A stretch of DNA of 64,000 nucleotides from Spirosoma sp. KCTC 42546 (lineage in GTDB: Bacteria; Bacteroidota; Bacteroidia; Cytophagales; Spirosomataceae), in the NCBI RefSeq assembly GCF_006965485.1, contig NZ_CP041360.1, positions 3,162,001-3,226,000 of the forward strand. Direction: 5' to 3'. The notes beneath the pieces are model-generated. The model searched no databases and had not been told where the DNA came from. It saw nothing but the letters and a program-made list of their open reading frames with translations. Below are positions 5,954-58,085 of this stretch, piece by piece (positions within the stretch are counted from its first letter, which is position 1; the number at the start of each line of letters is the position of its first letter). A program made the position numbers and the translations under genes.

Positions 5954-5980
5954 AAAAAAGGGGAGTAAAGGAGGAGAGGC

Positions 5981-6069
5981 AGGAAGGGGAGTAACGGGAG
6001 GAGAGGGAGGATGTTAACTAAGACTTTTCTTCTCCCTTTCTTCCCTCTCCTCCCGTTACTCCCCTTCCT
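5981..6069. repeat. Purine-rich inverted repeat, 28-bp perfect arms
   Basis: The arms 5981-6008 (purine-rich, containing GGGGAGTAACGGGAGGAGAG) and 6042-6069 are exact inverse complements around a 33-base loop. It lies between the mltG stop and the thioesterase start. A 19-base stretch (CCTTTCTTCCCTCTCCTCC) recurs in the element at 38673-38758, showing a dispersed family. Confidence 0.92.
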
Positions 6070-6073
6070 CCTT

Positions 6074-7111
6074 TTATTTCATAATCTTCATTCGTGTCAA
6101 AGCTTCCTGATATAACCGGGCGTTGGCTATGTGTTCGGCCAGCGTTTTGGAGAATGTATGGTAACCATTGAATCGGGCGTCGACTACGAAGTATAGATAA
6201 TCGTGTTGCTCGGCGTTCAGGACATTATCAATCGTGGCTGGGGCTGGGAGGTTGATAGGCCCAGGGGGGAGCCCTGCATAACGATACGTATTGTAGGGCG
6301 AATCGACGGTGAGTTGTTTATTCAACAGCCGACGGATGCCAAAATCACGGAGGGCAAAAATTACGGTTGGATCGGCTTCCAGTTTAATGCCTCGTTTTAA
6401 GCGGTTTAGGTAAACGCCCGCTACCCGCGGTTGCTCGTCCCGCTTATTGGTTTCTGCGGCCACAATAGACGCCAGCACCTGTACCTGTGTTTGGCTCATG
6501 CCCAGGGCTTTCGCTTTGGCCTGACGGTCGGGTGTCCAGAATTTTTTGTATTCAGTACCCATCCGCTCCAGAAACGCTTCGGGCTTGATTGTCCAGAACA
6601 TCTCATAGGTATTGGGCAGAAACAAACAGACAATCGTTGTAGTATCGAAGCCGAATTTCTGGCAGGTAGCTGGATCATTCAGTAACTTGCCCAGCGCTTC
6701 GGGACCAAACTCGAACTTACTGCCGACTCGCTGAATAAGGTCGCTTTTTTGCCGCATGCTATTGAAGGTTACAGGCATAGCATCCTGATTACCACTGCGA
6801 AGTTTGACCAAGGCTTCGCGGTTGCCCATAAGCGGTTTGATTTCATAACGTCCTTCTTTAACCAGCTCAGGATATTTCATCATCTTGGCCAGAAACCGGA
6901 AGGATGTTTCGTCGTTGATGACCTTATGCGTTTTAAGGGTATCCATCACCGATTCGAACGTAGCCCCGCGGGGAATCAACAACGCAAACGTTTTATCGCC
7001 ATCGTTTACCTGAAGATTTGGGCTTTTGAAAACCTGCCAGAAATAGAATGAAAACGTTGTGAGCAGGATGGAGACTGTGAGGAACAGGGCAATTTTAAAA
7101 TTACGAGACAT
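6074..7111 (-). CDS. mltG: Endolytic murein transglycosylase MltG
   Basis: A 345-residue inner-membrane lytic transglycosylase that cleaves nascent glycan strands and helps set their length. One N-terminal membrane helix (about 7-27) leads to a LysM-like subdomain (FALLIPRGATFESVMDTLK, 42-60) and then the YceG catalytic domain: LFLPNTYEMFW (163-173), the catalytic-glutamate motif ASIVAAETNK with E220, VAGVYLNRLKRGIKLEADPTVIFAL and YNTYRYAGLPPGPI, ending in the NAEQHDYLYFVVD segment. All elements expected of an intact enzyme are there. Start at 7111 (MSRNFKIALF) is the only sensible one. Confidence 0.95.
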   Translation of the reverse strand: MSRNFKIALFLTVSILLTTFSFYFWQVFKSPNLQVNDGDKTFALLIPRGATFESVMDTLKTHKVINDETSFRFLAKMMKYPELVKEGRYEIKPLMGNREALVKLRSGNQDAMPVTFNSMRQKSDLIQRVGSKFEFGPEALGKLLNDPATCQKFGFDTTTIVCLFLPNTYEMFWTIKPEAFLERMGTEYKKFWTPDRQAKAKALGMSQTQVQVLASIVAAETNKRDEQPRVAGVYLNRLKRGIKLEADPTVIFALRDFGIRRLLNKQLTVDSPYNTYRYAGLPPGPINLPAPATIDNVLNAEQHDYLYFVVDARFNGYHTFSKTLAEHIANARLYQEALTRMKIMK

Positions 7112-7792: not shown

Positions 7793-7810
7793 TCTCAAAA
7801 AGCACAGTTT

Positions 7811-7887
7811 TTTTGACAGGATTTACAAGATGAAGCCGGATTATTCTTACTCTTAAATCCTGTTTTATCCTGTAAATCCTGTCAAAA
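7811..7887. repeat. TTTGACAGGAT-family inverted repeat
   Basis: Arms 7811-7831 and 7867-7887 (21 nt) match inversely at 20 of 21 positions, giving TTTTGACAGGATTTACA and its complement around a 35-base loop. The same sequence returns at 58986-59050, 51 kb away. It lies downstream of the lipoprotein stop and directly ahead of the MFS promoter. Confidence 0.88.
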
Positions 7888-7893
7888 CTATTG

Positions 7894-7901
7894 TAAATTT
7901 G
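7894..7901 (+). promoter_or_regulatory. Bacteroidota -7 box (TAAATTTG) for the MFS gene
   Basis: TAAATTTG fits TAnnTTTG exactly. Because it overlaps the most upstream possible TTG start (7899), transcription would begin after it and translation must start further downstream. No clear -33 TTG is seen; the right arm of the 7811-7887 repeat occupies that position. Confidence 0.55.
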
Positions 7902-19341: not shown

Positions 19342-19369
19342 GAGACGTGATTTATTAGCTATAAATTTT

Positions 19370-19455
19370 ATTTTTAACCACAGAGGCACAGAGATTAACT
19401 AGCTAAAATCCATAGTTTACATCTCTATATTCTCTGTGTCTCTGTGGTTAAAAAT
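19370..19455. repeat. CACAGAGACACAGAG-family inverted repeat
   Basis: Arms 19370-19394 and 19431-19455 (25 nt) match inversely at 24 of 25 positions: ATTTTTAACCACAGAGGCAC and its partner. It directly follows the carboxylase stop and precedes a 38-residue ORF. The motif TTAACCACAGAGACACAGAG is a widely seen intergenic repeat in unrelated bacteria (general knowledge, not checked here). Confidence 0.9.
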
Positions 19456-19485
19456 TTATTTGATTACGTATAAACGCTTGACTAT

Positions 19486-28786: not shown

Positions 28787-28854
28787 AATTCTCTATAGAC
28801 TATTGAAAAAACAGCACCAAATTGCGGCTTTTTACGCAGAAACCCAACGTATGA

Positions 28855-28930
28855 GATTTACGATGTTCGATTTACGAATTAGGATTTCCTTTGGTGTACA
28901 TAACAAATCGTAATTCGAACATCGTAAATC
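28855..28930. repeat. GATTTACGATGTTCGA-family inverted repeat
   Basis: Arms 28855-28877 and 28908-28930 (23 nt) match inversely at 22 of 23 positions, with a 30-base loop. It lies between divergent genes (DUF2911 and Nudix), where a terminator is not needed, so a role in the leader or a mobile insertion is more likely. Confidence 0.87.
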
Positions 28931-28943
28931 CCAATTCTACTAT

Positions 28944-35681: not shown

Positions 35682-35738
35682 GGTTTTCGGTATACGGTTT
35701 TCGGTGGGCTGCCCACCGAAAACCGTATACCGAAAACC
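35682..35738. repeat. GGTTTTCGGTATACGG inverted repeat, 28-bp perfect arms, 1-base centre
   Basis: Arms 35682-35709 and 35711-35738 are exact inverse complements separated by a single base, almost a full palindrome. It lies between the subtilase stop and the macrodomain start; it is likely to form a cruciform or very stable RNA hairpin. Confidence 0.93.
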
Positions 35739-38655: not shown

Positions 38656-38672
38656 GGATGAGAGGGAAGAAG

Positions 38673-38758
38673 GGGAGAAAGGAGGAGAGGGAGGAAGGGC
38701 GAGAGGGCTGATTTACATCACTTTCTCTCCTCCTTTCTTCCCTCTCCTCCTTTCTCCC
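38673..38758. repeat. Purine-rich inverted repeat, 20-bp perfect arms
   Basis: Arms 38673-38692 (GGGAGAAAGGAGGAGAGGGA) and 38739-38758 are exact inverse complements. It shares 19 bases with the right arm of the element at 5981-6069. Lies between the ASKHA-like gene stop (38769) and the membrane protein gene start (38655). Confidence 0.9.
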
Positions 38759-38768
38759 TTTTCTCCGT

Positions 38769-41853: not shown

Positions 41854-41936
41854 GAGGTTTGATGTTCGTAGTTTGAGGTTTGAGGTTTACCCATGCGGCA
41901 GCAACGTCAAACCTCAAACTACGAACATCAAACCTC
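41854..41936. repeat. TTTGAGGTTTGA-family inverted repeat, 28-bp perfect arms
   Basis: Arms 41854-41881 and 41909-41936 are exact inverse complements. The 27-base loop contains ACCCATGCGGCAGCAACGTC. The right arm ends at the first base of the msrA stop (41936-41938 complement). It is the third consecutive gap with this family (after 39846 and 40949). Confidence 0.92.
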
Positions 41937-46531: not shown

Positions 46532-46729
46532 TGACTGAGTTGTATCTGGACTTGCCCTTTTGAAGGTGCGATCCTGGTGCATTCCCGTTATTTACCCTGC
46601 CAGATTTTTCGGAAGTGCGCTTTGCTGATAGGTTTTTTGCTGGATAAGTTTGGTAATTATCTACCTGCCTGGGCTGTTGTGGTGAGTGGGAGGGTTATCT
46701 TTACAGTCCGATTCTATACTCACCGGCTC

Positions 46730-49700
46730 ATGACTTTTCTTCAACAAACGGCACATAAAATTTTTGACCAGCACGGCCCCAGCCTGAGCGACGTATGGGT
46801 GATTTTGCCCACACGCCGGGCTGTATCGGTGTTTCTGGACGAATTAGCGGCTTGTTCTGACAGACCGTTTCTGGCTCCTCATGCACTGGCGGTCGATGAT
46901 TTTATTACGCAGGCTGCTGGTGTACAGCTCATTGATTCGGTTAGTTTGCTGTTTGAACTCTATGATGTTTTTAAGGAAATAGACCCTCTGGTTGAATTTG
47001 AGCAATTTATTGGTTGGGCGTCGGTGCTACTGGCCGACTTCGATCGTATTGATCAATACCTTATTAGTCCAACTGAACTCTTCAGTTACCTGACAGCCGC
47101 TAAAACGCTTGAGCGTTGGCAGGTTGATCGGCCTTCATCTGCGCAGCCAATTGTAGAAACCCCCGGAACAGCTCGCTATTTCAAACTGTTCGAAAACTTA
47201 CACACGGCTTACAACGCCCTGCATCAACGCCTGACCGAACAGAGATTAGCGTATCGGGGAATGGCATACCGATTGCTCGCCCAGGATGTAGAGCCCCTGA
47301 TTCGAGACAATCTGGCCTATGAACGGGTGTATTTTGTGGGCTTTAATGCCCTTAGCCGCGCTGAAGAACATATTATCCGGGTGCTGGTCGATGCCCAGAA
47401 AGCGGAGCTTATCTGGGATGCTGACCAATATTATATCCGCGATTGGGGACAGGAAGCGGGTGAATTTCTCCGCCGATACCGGGATAATGGCTGGTTTTTC
47501 TCAAAACAAAACCAGGAAGATCTGGCCCAACAATCGAACAATCTGCTGGGTACGGAGAAAAATATACGGATTGTTGGCGTGCCAAACGCAAGCATGCAGG
47601 CAAAAGTGGCCGGAAAGATTTATAGCGATTGGCAGAGGGCATGGAGCGCGGAGCAGGGAGTAGGGGATGCGTCATCTCCGCACTCCGCCCCCCCTGCCCC
47701 GCGCCCCAAAACCGCTATTGTGCTGGCTGATGAGACGTTATTGATTCCGGTGTTATATGCTCTTGACGAAAACGTGACCGATCTGAACGTCACAATGGGC
47801 TTGTCGCTGCGATCGTCGTTGTTGTTTACCCTGGTCGATACCCTGTTCGAGATGCAACGGACAGTGCACGAATTCAGAACAAAGGATGGGCGTGATCTGC
47901 GGATTCCCAAATACCATCACCGCCATGTAGTAAAGGTGCTGAATCATCCGTTTGTAAAGCAGTATGAGCGCATTCGGGAACTTATGTGGCCTGGTGAATT
48001 TCTGGAATCGGGAGAGGTATTACCGCCAGAACCGTTGTTCCAGTGGATAGCGAAGGTGATCGTGAAAGATCAGCGCGTGTACCTCACCGAAAAGGAAATG
48101 AGGGAGTTAGGGCAGGATGATCCGCTCATTCGGGTATTATTTACCCGTTGGCCCAACGAGAATCCGATGAAAGCCATTCGCGTTTTCTACGAGTTGATCG
48201 AGCTACTGCGCGATGTGTACAGGGTCAGCCAGGATGCTATCGAGATCGAGTATCTCTACCTCTTCTTTACGCTCCTTAAACAACTCGAAGCAACACTGGA
48301 GGGTGGGCAGGTAGCGGTGGGCAGAGAGCAGGGAGCGCGGAGCCGGGAGCCGGGAGCCGGGAACCGTGATTCTGCTGTCGATCCCTCCACCCGCTCCGCG
48401 CCCATGGCTCCCCGCTCCCTGCCCCCGGCTCCGCGCTCCGAGCACCCCGCTATTACCGTGCGGAGTTTTCGACAGTTTCTGTATGAACTGATTCGGCAAA
48501 CGAGTATTCCGTTTACGAGTGAAGGGAAGAGTCAGTTGCAAATTATGGGGATGCTCGAAACACGGGCGCTGGACTTCGACCGGGTGATTATACTGTCGGT
48601 CAATGAAGGTGTATTGCCGCAATCCCGGAAGTTAAACTCGCTGATCCCATTCGATATTGCTGCTGAACTGCACATGCCTACGTACCGGGAACAGGAAGCT
48701 GTAATGGCCTATCACTTTTACCGGCTGTTGCAACGGGCGAGCGAGATTGTACTTCTGCACACCACATCTACCGATGCCTATGGAAACAGCAAAGGAGAGC
48801 CTAGCCGGTTTATCCGGCAAATTGAACATGAACTGGTGCCCCGCTCGAAAGGGCTTATCCGGATCAGCCACCCCACAGTGCGCTTCGGTCGAACGGGTGC
48901 TAGTACGGTAGCTGATCTGACGGATTTGCGGGTGCCTAAAACGGATGCTATCCGCGCCGAACTCATCAATACACTAACAACAAGAGGCCTGTATCCATCT
49001 TACCTGAATCAGTTCGTGAGTTGCTCCATGCGCTTTTATTTCAGCCGGATCGTGAACATTAGCGAGGAGGAAGATATAGAAGAGAAAATGGGGGCCGCCG
49101 AGTTCGGGAGCTGGCTCCATATGGTGCTGGAGCGGCTGGATAAAGACTATCGGCTGAAAAACCTGCCTATTGATGAGTCGATTATCAAGAACCTGCTGGA
49201 AGAAGAGTTTGCGAAGTCGATGAAGGGTCGGGTTATTGAATCGGGAATGAATTTACTCCTGTACGAACTGGCGCAGAAACTCATGCTCGACTTCCAGCGG
49301 GAGCAAAGTAAACTGGCTGGACTTACCGTTATCGGAACTGAGCAAACCCTCGAAACCTACCTGATGGTACCCCTGGCTGATGGTCAGGAAATTCGGGTGC
49401 GAATAGCCGGTAAAGTGGACCGAATCGAACAGTTTGGCGATCAAATTCGGATCGTGGATTATAAAACAGGACGGGTTGATTTATCCGATAAAACACCCAG
49501 CGACCTATCGGAAAAACTCCTGAAAGACGGTAAGGAAGAAAAAATGAGGCAGTTGTGGTTATACCGCTATCTGGCCCTCAAGAATATCAGAGACTACGGC
49601 GGCCTGCCCCGCGATAAAGCCAAACGGGATATTTTCCCGGCCAGAGGGCTGCCGGTTGAAGCAGGATTTTATTCCTTTCGGGATATCAGTGGTGGTTTCA

Positions 49701-49876
49701 AAACGAACCCCGTTCGGTTCGATACCAATGATGATCCTGAACAGTACATCAACGATTCGGAAGAATTATTACGGCAACTGATCCGCCAGCTTCTGGATGA
49801 AACGGAACCGTTTAAGAAGACCGACAAACTCGAAACCTGCCAGTTCTGTGATTTTAAAGGGATTTGTGGGCGATAA
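46730..49876 (+). CDS. AddB-like PD-(D/E)XK nuclease with Fe-S cysteines, carrying two in-frame repeat insertions
   Basis: A 1048-residue protein of the AddB/RecB-nuclease type. The N-terminal region (SDVWVILPTRRAVSVFLDELA) is helicase-like but degraded; the C-terminal nuclease has IRIVDYKTGR (the D-...-YK of PD-(D/E)XK) and an Fe-S cluster from C765 (SCSMRF) with C1037, C1040 and C1046 (C-x2-C-x5-C). In AddAB, AddB recognises Chi and cuts the 5' strand at double-strand breaks. Residues about 305-326 (AWSAEQGVGDASSPHSAPPAPRP) and 535-570 are low-complexity stretches coded by inverted repeats and look like insertions. Start 46730 (MTFLQQTAHKIFD) is better than earlier frames. AddA is not in the window. 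Confidence 0.82.
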   Translation: MTFLQQTAHKIFDQHGPSLSDVWVILPTRRAVSVFLDELAACSDRPFLAPHALAVDDFITQAAGVQLIDSVSLLFELYDVFKEIDPLVEFEQFIGWASVLLADFDRIDQYLISPTELFSYLTAAKTLERWQVDRPSSAQPIVETPGTARYFKLFENLHTAYNALHQRLTEQRLAYRGMAYRLLAQDVEPLIRDNLAYERVYFVGFNALSRAEEHIIRVLVDAQKAELIWDADQYYIRDWGQEAGEFLRRYRDNGWFFSKQNQEDLAQQSNNLLGTEKNIRIVGVPNASMQAKVAGKIYSDWQRAWSAEQGVGDASSPHSAPPAPRPKTAIVLADETLLIPVLYALDENVTDLNVTMGLSLRSSLLFTLVDTLFEMQRTVHEFRTKDGRDLRIPKYHHRHVVKVLNHPFVKQYERIRELMWPGEFLESGEVLPPEPLFQWIAKVIVKDQRVYLTEKEMRELGQDDPLIRVLFTRWPNENPMKAIRVFYELIELLRDVYRVSQDAIEIEYLYLFFTLLKQLEATLEGGQVAVGREQGARSREPGAGNRDSAVDPSTRSAPMAPRSLPPAPRSEHPAITVRSFRQFLYELIRQTSIPFTSEGKSQLQIMGMLETRALDFDRVIILSVNEGVLPQSRKLNSLIPFDIAAELHMPTYREQEAVMAYHFYRLLQRASEIVLLHTTSTDAYGNSKGEPSRFIRQIEHELVPRSKGLIRISHPTVRFGRTGASTVADLTDLRVPKTDAIRAELINTLTTRGLYPSYLNQFVSCSMRFYFSRIVNISEEEDIEEKMGAAEFGSWLHMVLERLDKDYRLKNLPIDESIIKNLLEEEFAKSMKGRVIESGMNLLLYELAQKLMLDFQREQSKLAGLTVIGTEQTLETYLMVPLADGQEIRVRIAGKVDRIEQFGDQIRIVDYKTGRVDLSDKTPSDLSEKLLKDGKEEKMRQLWLYRYLALKNIRDYGGLPRDKAKRDIFPARGLPVEAGFYSFRDISGGFKTNPVRFDTNDDPEQYINDSEELLRQLIRQLLDETEPFKKTDKLETCQFCDFKGICGR
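47643..47707. repeat. GC-rich inverted repeat inside the AddB-like gene, copy 1
   Basis: Arms 47643-47660 (GGAGCGCGGAGCAGGGAG) and 47690-47707 match at 15 of 18 positions. In-frame and stop-free, it codes part of the low-complexity stretch. Same arm motif as copy 2. Confidence 0.8.
48332..48439. repeat. GC-rich inverted repeat inside the AddB-like gene, copy 2
   Basis: Arms 48332-48365 and 48406-48439 (34 nt) match at 30 of 34 positions; the outer 16 (GGAGCGCGGAGCCGGG) are perfect. In-frame, without stop, coding an Arg/Pro/Ser-rich stretch. Confidence 0.88.
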
Positions 49877-49886
49877 ACTGGAAGAG

Positions 49887-49969
49887 TGGAACGCTGATGA
49901 CGCAGATTTTTAAGATTAATATAGATTTATCATTCTAGATCTTAAAAAATCTGCGTCATCAGCGTTCCA
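49887..49969. repeat. GCTGATGACGCAGATTTTT-family inverted repeat
   Basis: Arms 49887-49916 (30 nt) and 49939-49969 (31 nt) match fully except for one extra base in the right arm. Between convergent AddB-like and acyl-CoA dehydrogenase genes, followed by a T run. Related to 13745 and 33292. Confidence 0.9.
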
Positions 49970-49976
49970 TTTTTTC

Positions 49977-58001: not shown

Positions 58002-58085
58002 GTTTGACGTCTGTAGTTTAAAGTTTGACGTTTGTACTTCCTGAGATAACTCTTGACGTCAGACTTTAAACTACAGACGTCAAAC
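58002..58085. repeat. TTTGACGTCTGTAGTTTAA inverted repeat, leader of lgt
   Basis: Arms 58002-58031 and 58056-58085 (30 nt) match at 29 of 30 positions. The sequence belongs to the TTTGAGGTTTGA/TTTGACGTTTG family of 39846-41936. It sits 22 bp ahead of lgt. Confidence 0.9.

Follow-up and report, generated by a model that had tools for sequence, protein, structure and literature searches.

How did two GC-rich palindromes come to lie in frame within the gene for an AddB-like nuclease of Spirosoma sp. KCTC 42546? The locus was examined in a 64,000-nt stretch of DNA (the window) from this genome of 8.66 Mb. The longest open reading frame at the locus (46577-49876) has a GTG start at 46577 and an ATG at 46730 within it; this ATG encodes the start residue in all five of the closest aligned homologues, giving a gene at 46730..49876 on the forward strand and a protein of 1048 amino acids. 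The product matched PDDEXK_1 (PF12705) with 109 bits, and its predicted fold was that of AddB with a C-terminal PD-(D/E)XK nuclease, the top match being 4cei_B, AddB of AddAB (E 2.6e-21); the best PDB fold matches, 4cei_B, 4cej_B and 3u4q_B, had TM scores of about 0.4. Curated AddB models scored below their cut-offs (TIGR02786, 68 bits versus 486.5; TIGR02773, 35 versus 904), and a PDB sequence search with a profile of the protein returned no match. On the strength of the PDDEXK_1 match, the sub-cut-off AddB models and a predicted fold closest to AddB, the gene product is a predicted AddB-like nuclease, and the naming stops at "-like". Directly after its stop codon, in terminator position, lies an intergenic hairpin without assigned strand (49882..49974; inverted repeat I13) with 30-nt arms that are 93% complementary.

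Both palindromes are on the forward strand, each within a linker that was delimited by alignment of the genus orthologues. At site 1 (47633..47710; amino acids 302-327), hairpin 1 has a 5′ arm at 47643..47660, a run of heptamers of which the first two are GGAGCGC and GGAGCAG, and a complementary 3′ arm at 47690..47707. At site 2 (48299..48451; amino acids 524-574), hairpin 2 has a 5′ arm at 48332..48365, which reads GGAGCGC, three times GGAGCCG and then GGAACC (lag-7 z 4.8), and a 3′ arm at 48406..48439 that shares its heptamer register. The earlier note's description of these elements held up: 15 of 18 and 30 of 34 arm positions are complementary in hairpins 1 and 2, respectively, both left arms open with GGAGCGCGGAGC, and the frame of ORF 46577-49876 has no stop across either segment. 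Folded as RNA together with some flanking sequence, site 2 reached a z of -4.93, equalled by 0 of 200 dinucleotide shuffles, and site 1 a z of -2.40, with 3 of 200 shuffles as good; in the bare linkers without flank the order flipped (z -3.2 at site 1, -2.1 at site 2). In 864 kb around the window, 73 in-gene ungapped palindromes scored at least 11, and a single Markov control, with a top score of 13, predicts about 57. Site 2, with a score of 22, is the outlier among the 73, and site 1, with a score of 11, is at chance level by ungapped-palindrome score alone. Of the two hairpins, the second is clearly non-random and the first, by itself, marginal.

The nuclease was matched in 56 of the 59 genomes searched, including all 36 of the genus (the source genome counted). 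A single open frame runs through both linkers in 34 of these 36, the exceptions being a broken frame (G015) and a gene that ends at a contig edge (G033); from this conservation of the frame we infer that the linker segments are probably translated. In S. telluris, the reading frame of the AddB-like gene (L282) appears broken, which may be real or a sequencing error. Linker lengths, readable at 29 of 30 loci (L015 was unreadable), ranged from 18 to 156 nt at site 1 and from 18 to 153 nt at site 2 between nearly invariant flanks; the source gene has 78 and 153 nt, and linkers of at most 36 nt were found at 6 and 13 of the 29 loci. An unrelated hairpin of TAGTCATCAG type occupies site 1 in S. endophyticum (L005; z -7.9) and S. 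profusum (L010; z -8.2), and that of S. telluris resembles it, judged by eye. With 28 loci scored at each site, folds with z of -3 or lower numbered 7 at site 1 and 3 at site 2, two or three of them being short linkers with small stems. Many expanded linkers carry no hairpin, as in L004 and L006-L008 (z between -1.2 and 1.6) and at site 2 of S. arboris (L002; z 1.4). Among close homologues, P0002 (99% identical) lacks exactly 7 amino acids of the site-2 3′ arm in the protein alignment, and in P0003 (93% identical) each segment is about half as long (13 of 26 amino acids at site 1, 25 of 51 at site 2). Judged from these alignments, both sites are hypervariable linkers throughout Spirosoma, sometimes with a hairpin of a different sequence family.

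The earlier note had taken the segments for inserted palindromes that orthologues should lack. This is borne out insofar as the segments are long compared with many orthologues and dwindle to the short linkers counted above at some loci; it does not hold for congeners that carry other hairpins at the site, and a single inserted palindrome is at odds with the different hairpin family found there and with the in-place rewriting described below. No insertion edge can be defined, since the linkers vary throughout the genus. Of the two outcomes that, by the note, would count against its proposal, conserved sequence at the segments was not seen, and repeats at the same place were, of other kinds and in several congeners. 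Its suggestion that the segments fall in loops agrees with an AlphaFold model (68 sequences; mean pLDDT 82; pTM 0.61), in which both lie in predicted loops: site 1 is a coil after the helix 287-310, with a mean pLDDT of 61 at amino acids 311-320, and site 2 is the longest low-confidence stretch, with pLDDT below 50 at amino acids 537-570.

A search of the 864 kb revealed 143 hairpins scoring at least 17, and none in one Markov control. Of these, 119 were intergenic, 23 overlapped a gene end and one, hairpin 2, was within a gene. Convergent gaps held 41 hairpins in 23 kb, tandem gaps 91 in 78 kb and divergent gaps 10 in 44 kb; in the 91 tandem cases, the hairpin lay a median of 8 nt downstream of the upstream stop. 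The class as a whole sits in a terminator-like position, and the AddB hairpins, unlike intrinsic terminators, are internal to a gene. The arms were periodic, with an identity of.407 at lag 7 and.412 at lag 14, compared with.25-.33 at the remaining lags; in a set of 111 arms, the lag that scored best at z > 2.5 was 7 in 34, 9 in 12, 10 in 5 and another in 3, and shuffled arms gave 1 altogether. Arms were perfect in 67 of the 143 hairpins, and the median match of an arm was.97 to its own mirrored partner versus.76 to its best counterpart anywhere else in these 864 kb. For 35 of the 143, a match of at least 90% was found elsewhere, so that some members of the class do have copies. Rickettsia palindromic elements (RPEs) fall into families, each with its consensus; a consensus common to the copies does not hold for the present class as a whole. 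G outnumbered C in the 5′ arm of 56 of the 58 periodic hairpins, independently of strand; in the non-periodic hairpins this arm had more G in 53, more C in 24 and neither in 8. Further heptamer hairpins in the window, with arms 90-100% complementary, lie at 41854-41936, 58002-58085, 35682-35738 and 28852-28933 and have units of GTTTGAN, GGTTTNC and GATTTAC types; hairpins with other units, of ATCCTGT, CACAGAG and GGAGGAGAGG types, lie at 7804-7894, 19351-19474, 5967-6074 and 38656-38766.

The AddB hairpins belong to a GC-rich family with a common heptamer grammar. Its pattern, with two mismatches allowed, gave 69 matches in the source genome versus 3 for the reversed control, so that a few are expected by chance; the 69 were grouped by hand into 36 places. 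The pattern was patchy in the genus, with 76, 69, 56, 39, 29, 23 and 18 matches in seven genomes and at most 12 in the other 29, and at one mismatch it was present in 4 of the 59 sampled genomes of the order, the source genome included. Eleven of the 36 places were inside genes by a codon-score rule, and 2 further ones by eye (4387747 and 8247020). The eleven are addB (twice), ligA, murF-alr, an E2 acyltransferase, a methylmalonyl-CoA mutase fusion, a GH20 enzyme, a LytTR regulator, a P-type ATPase, a helicase and a large protein at 8658823; seven identities were assigned by Pfam, and the helicase by reading the sequence. A larger share inside genes had been suggested by stop-to-stop ORFs, which were misleading, and the view that GC hairpins are mostly genic was dropped in favour of the codon scores. 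Loci of FtsX-type permeases were likewise rejected as a common in-gene site, the hairpins there being intergenic on reading of the sequence and none genic by the codon rule. Ungapped arms of at least 14 nt were found at 8 of the 13 in-gene places (the rule-based eleven plus the two seen by eye) and at 11 of the 23 others, so several places are one-armed or gapped. The median arm match of the family was about.89 both in and outside genes, and no difference in quality was detected between its in-gene arms and the others (p 0.91).

These places agree with the contention that the hairpins are not only terminators. The further idea that the interrupted gene matters as a nuclease acting on hairpins is not needed, as ligA, murF-alr, the E2 acyltransferase and the P-type ATPase, among others, carry such segments; AddB is not special as a carrier of GC-rich hairpins. 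In ligA, the linker has 11 amino acids at 7 of 26 readable loci and up to 50 elsewhere, and the corresponding place in LigA 2owo, the E. coli enzyme, has 4 residues. Strong folds of the ligA linker were seen in some species only (z -6.6 in L203, -3.5 in the source genome, -0.8 in L202 and 0.5 in L204).

Changes at hairpin sites were followed in two pairs of close species, G018/G001 (91.8% identity, 365 kb) and G027/G004 (90.4%, 283 kb). We used 37 of 40 and 24 of 29 first-species hairpins, 61 altogether (3 in each pair were left out for poor flanks and 2 of the second pair for want of a usable counterpart stretch), whether or not the second species had a hairpin there. Among columns changed in both arms, 54 of 70 and 26 of 36 were still complementary, compared with 17 of 45 and 8 of 20 in slid controls; the reverse direction, run without a slid control, gave 50 of 63 and 22 of 29. 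Counted per hairpin (n = 61), paired double changes exceeded broken ones in 25 and were fewer in 8. Transversions accounted for 25 of 54 and 13 of 26 paired double changes, about half, and a single G-U step therefore cannot explain them. Coordinated change in both arms, as expected of template switching, was thus found over the 61 hairpins of the two pairs, with single-arm changes (120 and 60 columns in the two pairs) outnumbering coordinated ones. The hairpins at G027 30677 and G004 44188 have 29 of 29 arm positions paired in each species and 6 coordinated differences; at G027 79525, nearly unchanged flanks enclose units that in both arms are of AGTGAAAG versus ATTGAATG type; at hairpin 69507, the left flank is nearly identical while the arms change type. 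An earlier tally (70:14 and 26:11) is illustrative only, as it required a hairpin in both species and included some non-orthologous pairs (44390/56806 is not orthologous and 6123/29758 doubtful). Hairpins often keep their place and pairing and lose their sequence. Two arms in one species and one in the other were seen at G001 offset 379837 versus G018 384934 and at G027 94492 versus G004, differences that fit the expected gain or loss of one arm.

We consider it somewhat probable, at roughly 55%, that the AddB palindromes belong, as coding members, to a class of periodic inverted repeats that occurs across the genus and is rewritten in place by slippage and template switching. The arms are short runs of degenerate 7-nt units (8-, 9- or 10-nt in other families), mutually mirrored, and the class is mostly intergenic, typically just past a stop codon. 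The repeats would be made and rewritten in place at replication: slippage would gain or lose units, in coding DNA by frame-keeping steps such as 21 nt, or three heptamers (a figure derived, for P0002, from the 7 amino acids of the protein sequence), and template switching between the arms would copy one arm onto the other, the outcome being rapid sequence turnover at a constant place and with pairing kept. As read from its sequence, the consensus unit of the GC-rich family is stop-free in every frame, so the family can persist in coding DNA where the protein tolerates an additional loop; in-gene repeats would be translated as they are, into peptides of the type GAGSREQG ... PAPSSLPPAP. Template switching and slippage are taken as the likeliest agents because coordinated change is a footprint known from template switching; selection for pairing at terminators could supply part of this signal, and in P0002 units were lost from one arm only, which speaks against the proposal. 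The two AddB hairpins, with arms only 83-88% complementary, are presumably under the same process as the other hairpins of the genus. As a tentative extension that we lean against, periodic hairpins at fixed sites in Spirosoma may be built, rewritten and exchanged with unusual activity, by a process that acts on whole arms at once and keeps G above C in the 5′ arm. Through the GC family, which is largely free of stops, this process would provide core proteins with a steady stream of new in-frame loops, where short motifs for binding (such as the β-clamp-like QLSLF of AddB and LigA linkers) can appear.

The data are better accounted for by in-place rewriting than by one mobile element inserting repeatedly. 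The latter, a palindromic element of REP/MITE or RPE kind, perhaps mobilized by Y1/RAYT, would transpose, sometimes land in frame and leave copies that decay; it is unlikely, and the best placed of the alternatives. In its favor are the dispersed GC heptamers with their patchy burst among the genus genomes, the 35 of 143 arms matched elsewhere, five Y1_Tnp matches in the source genome, and the in-frame REPs described in PMC6006769 for Bacteroidetes and Cyanobacteria (RAYT subclass 2.4). Against it, most hairpins have no fixed consensus, as their arms match each other far better than any other place, and close species show in-place rewriting at common sites. By eye, 16 site alignments (6 + 10) contained no clean empty site with a duplication. 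No heptamer hairpin was found beside the five Y1_Tnp matches, a 9-nt-type hairpin lying about 1.1 kb away in L033, and the four of them whose motif could be read all fall outside subclass 2.4 by the motif table of PMC6006769. The Y1 transposase-like genes at L032, L034 and L035 have nearby hairpins of their own (arms up to 54 nt), which are unlike the heptamer class.

Plain slippage in a GC-rich, low-complexity linker, with the AddB palindrome as a by-product of composition, is improbable. It would suit the chance-level score of site 1, the modest fold of the bare site-2 linker (z -2.1), the many variable linkers without a hairpin and the one-arm change in P0002; it sits poorly with site 2, which with its flank folds better than all 200 dinucleotide shuffles and is the outlier among in-gene palindromes, with the heptamer register in both arms, and with the site-1 hairpins at z near -8 in two other species. 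More improbable still is an RNA structure selected in the coding region for pausing, attenuation or mRNA stability: the predicted RNA folds are strong and hairpins recur at the same two AddB sites, yet most of the 28 loci (21 at site 1, 25 at site 2) have no fold at z of -3 or lower, and the same GC family occurs in unrelated genes. That the segments are bypassed at translation or cut out, as PMC6649704 describes for palindromic inserts bypassed in Magnusiomyces mitochondrial genes, is scarcely credible, as bypass needs no frame and the frame stays open through both linkers in 34 of 36 genomes despite widely varying lengths.

Rewriting in place may be set beside systems already described; among the best matches in the open-access literature, we found no published account of the Spirosoma heptamer hairpins. 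Coding palindromes are already known from elsewhere, as RPEs and as in-frame REPs. RPEs are described in PMC2229807 as 105-146 bp palindromes that lie in frame in conserved Rickettsia genes and also occur between genes, with one tested product active, and PMC6649704 indicates that they lose arm identity over time. The Spirosoma palindromes are similar in lying in frame in protein genes and also between genes, and in that the in-frame palindrome is missing from some orthologues; they differ in being mostly without fixed consensus, in their heptamer arms and in the different families at one site. REPs are reported, in PMC6006769, in frame in RAYT subclass 2.4 and other genes, in peripheral loops; the hairpins here share the loops and a host in Bacteroidetes, and differ in that no cognate transposase was found for the heptamer hairpins among the five Y1_Tnp matches checked. 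Template switching, according to PMC8794818 and PMC8604942, creates and keeps hairpins with multibase compensatory changes and affects coding DNA in yeast; the Spirosoma arms likewise change together, and unlike the hairpins described there they are periodic, occupy many sites per bacterial genome and turn over fast. In Nematomorpha mitochondria, inverted repeats in coding genes are thought to be actively kept and are gained and lost between species (PMC6649704); their arms encode conserved protein parts, whereas the Spirosoma coding hairpins are confined to variable loops. TAACTGA heptamer repeats share a 7-nt unit, include Bacteroidetes among their hosts and form some arrays in ORFs, as PMC4679880 states, but they are direct repeats of one exact unit (with one inverted case), and the Spirosoma repeats have inverted arms of degenerate units.

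The upkeep of perfect hairpins has long been puzzling because single mutations break the pairing. If the proposed rewriting is correct, the birth and upkeep of perfect bacterial hairpins would be observable between close species, and essential enzymes would gain new loops from the same process. Repeat finders can overlook hairpin families that lack a consensus, which calls for caution.

A separate observation concerns the content of the linkers. Motifs resembling β-clamp-binding sites, called by the consensus for such motifs, turn up repeatedly in the variable linkers of AddB and LigA, both of them DNA-repair proteins. No such motif was seen by eye in 30 MurF-Alr linkers located by alignment. 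In AddB, the candidates are QLSLF, QMSLF, QLNLF, QLSINF and QLTLDF, at site 1 in P0008, P0009, P0017 and P0091 and at site 2 in P0004 and P0005; in the ligA linkers (L199-L207), they are QVAIEF, QITIAF, QLSLEF, QLSLF and kin. A narrower expression of the motif gave 7 matches in 239,708 amino acids of the source genome, ligA among them.
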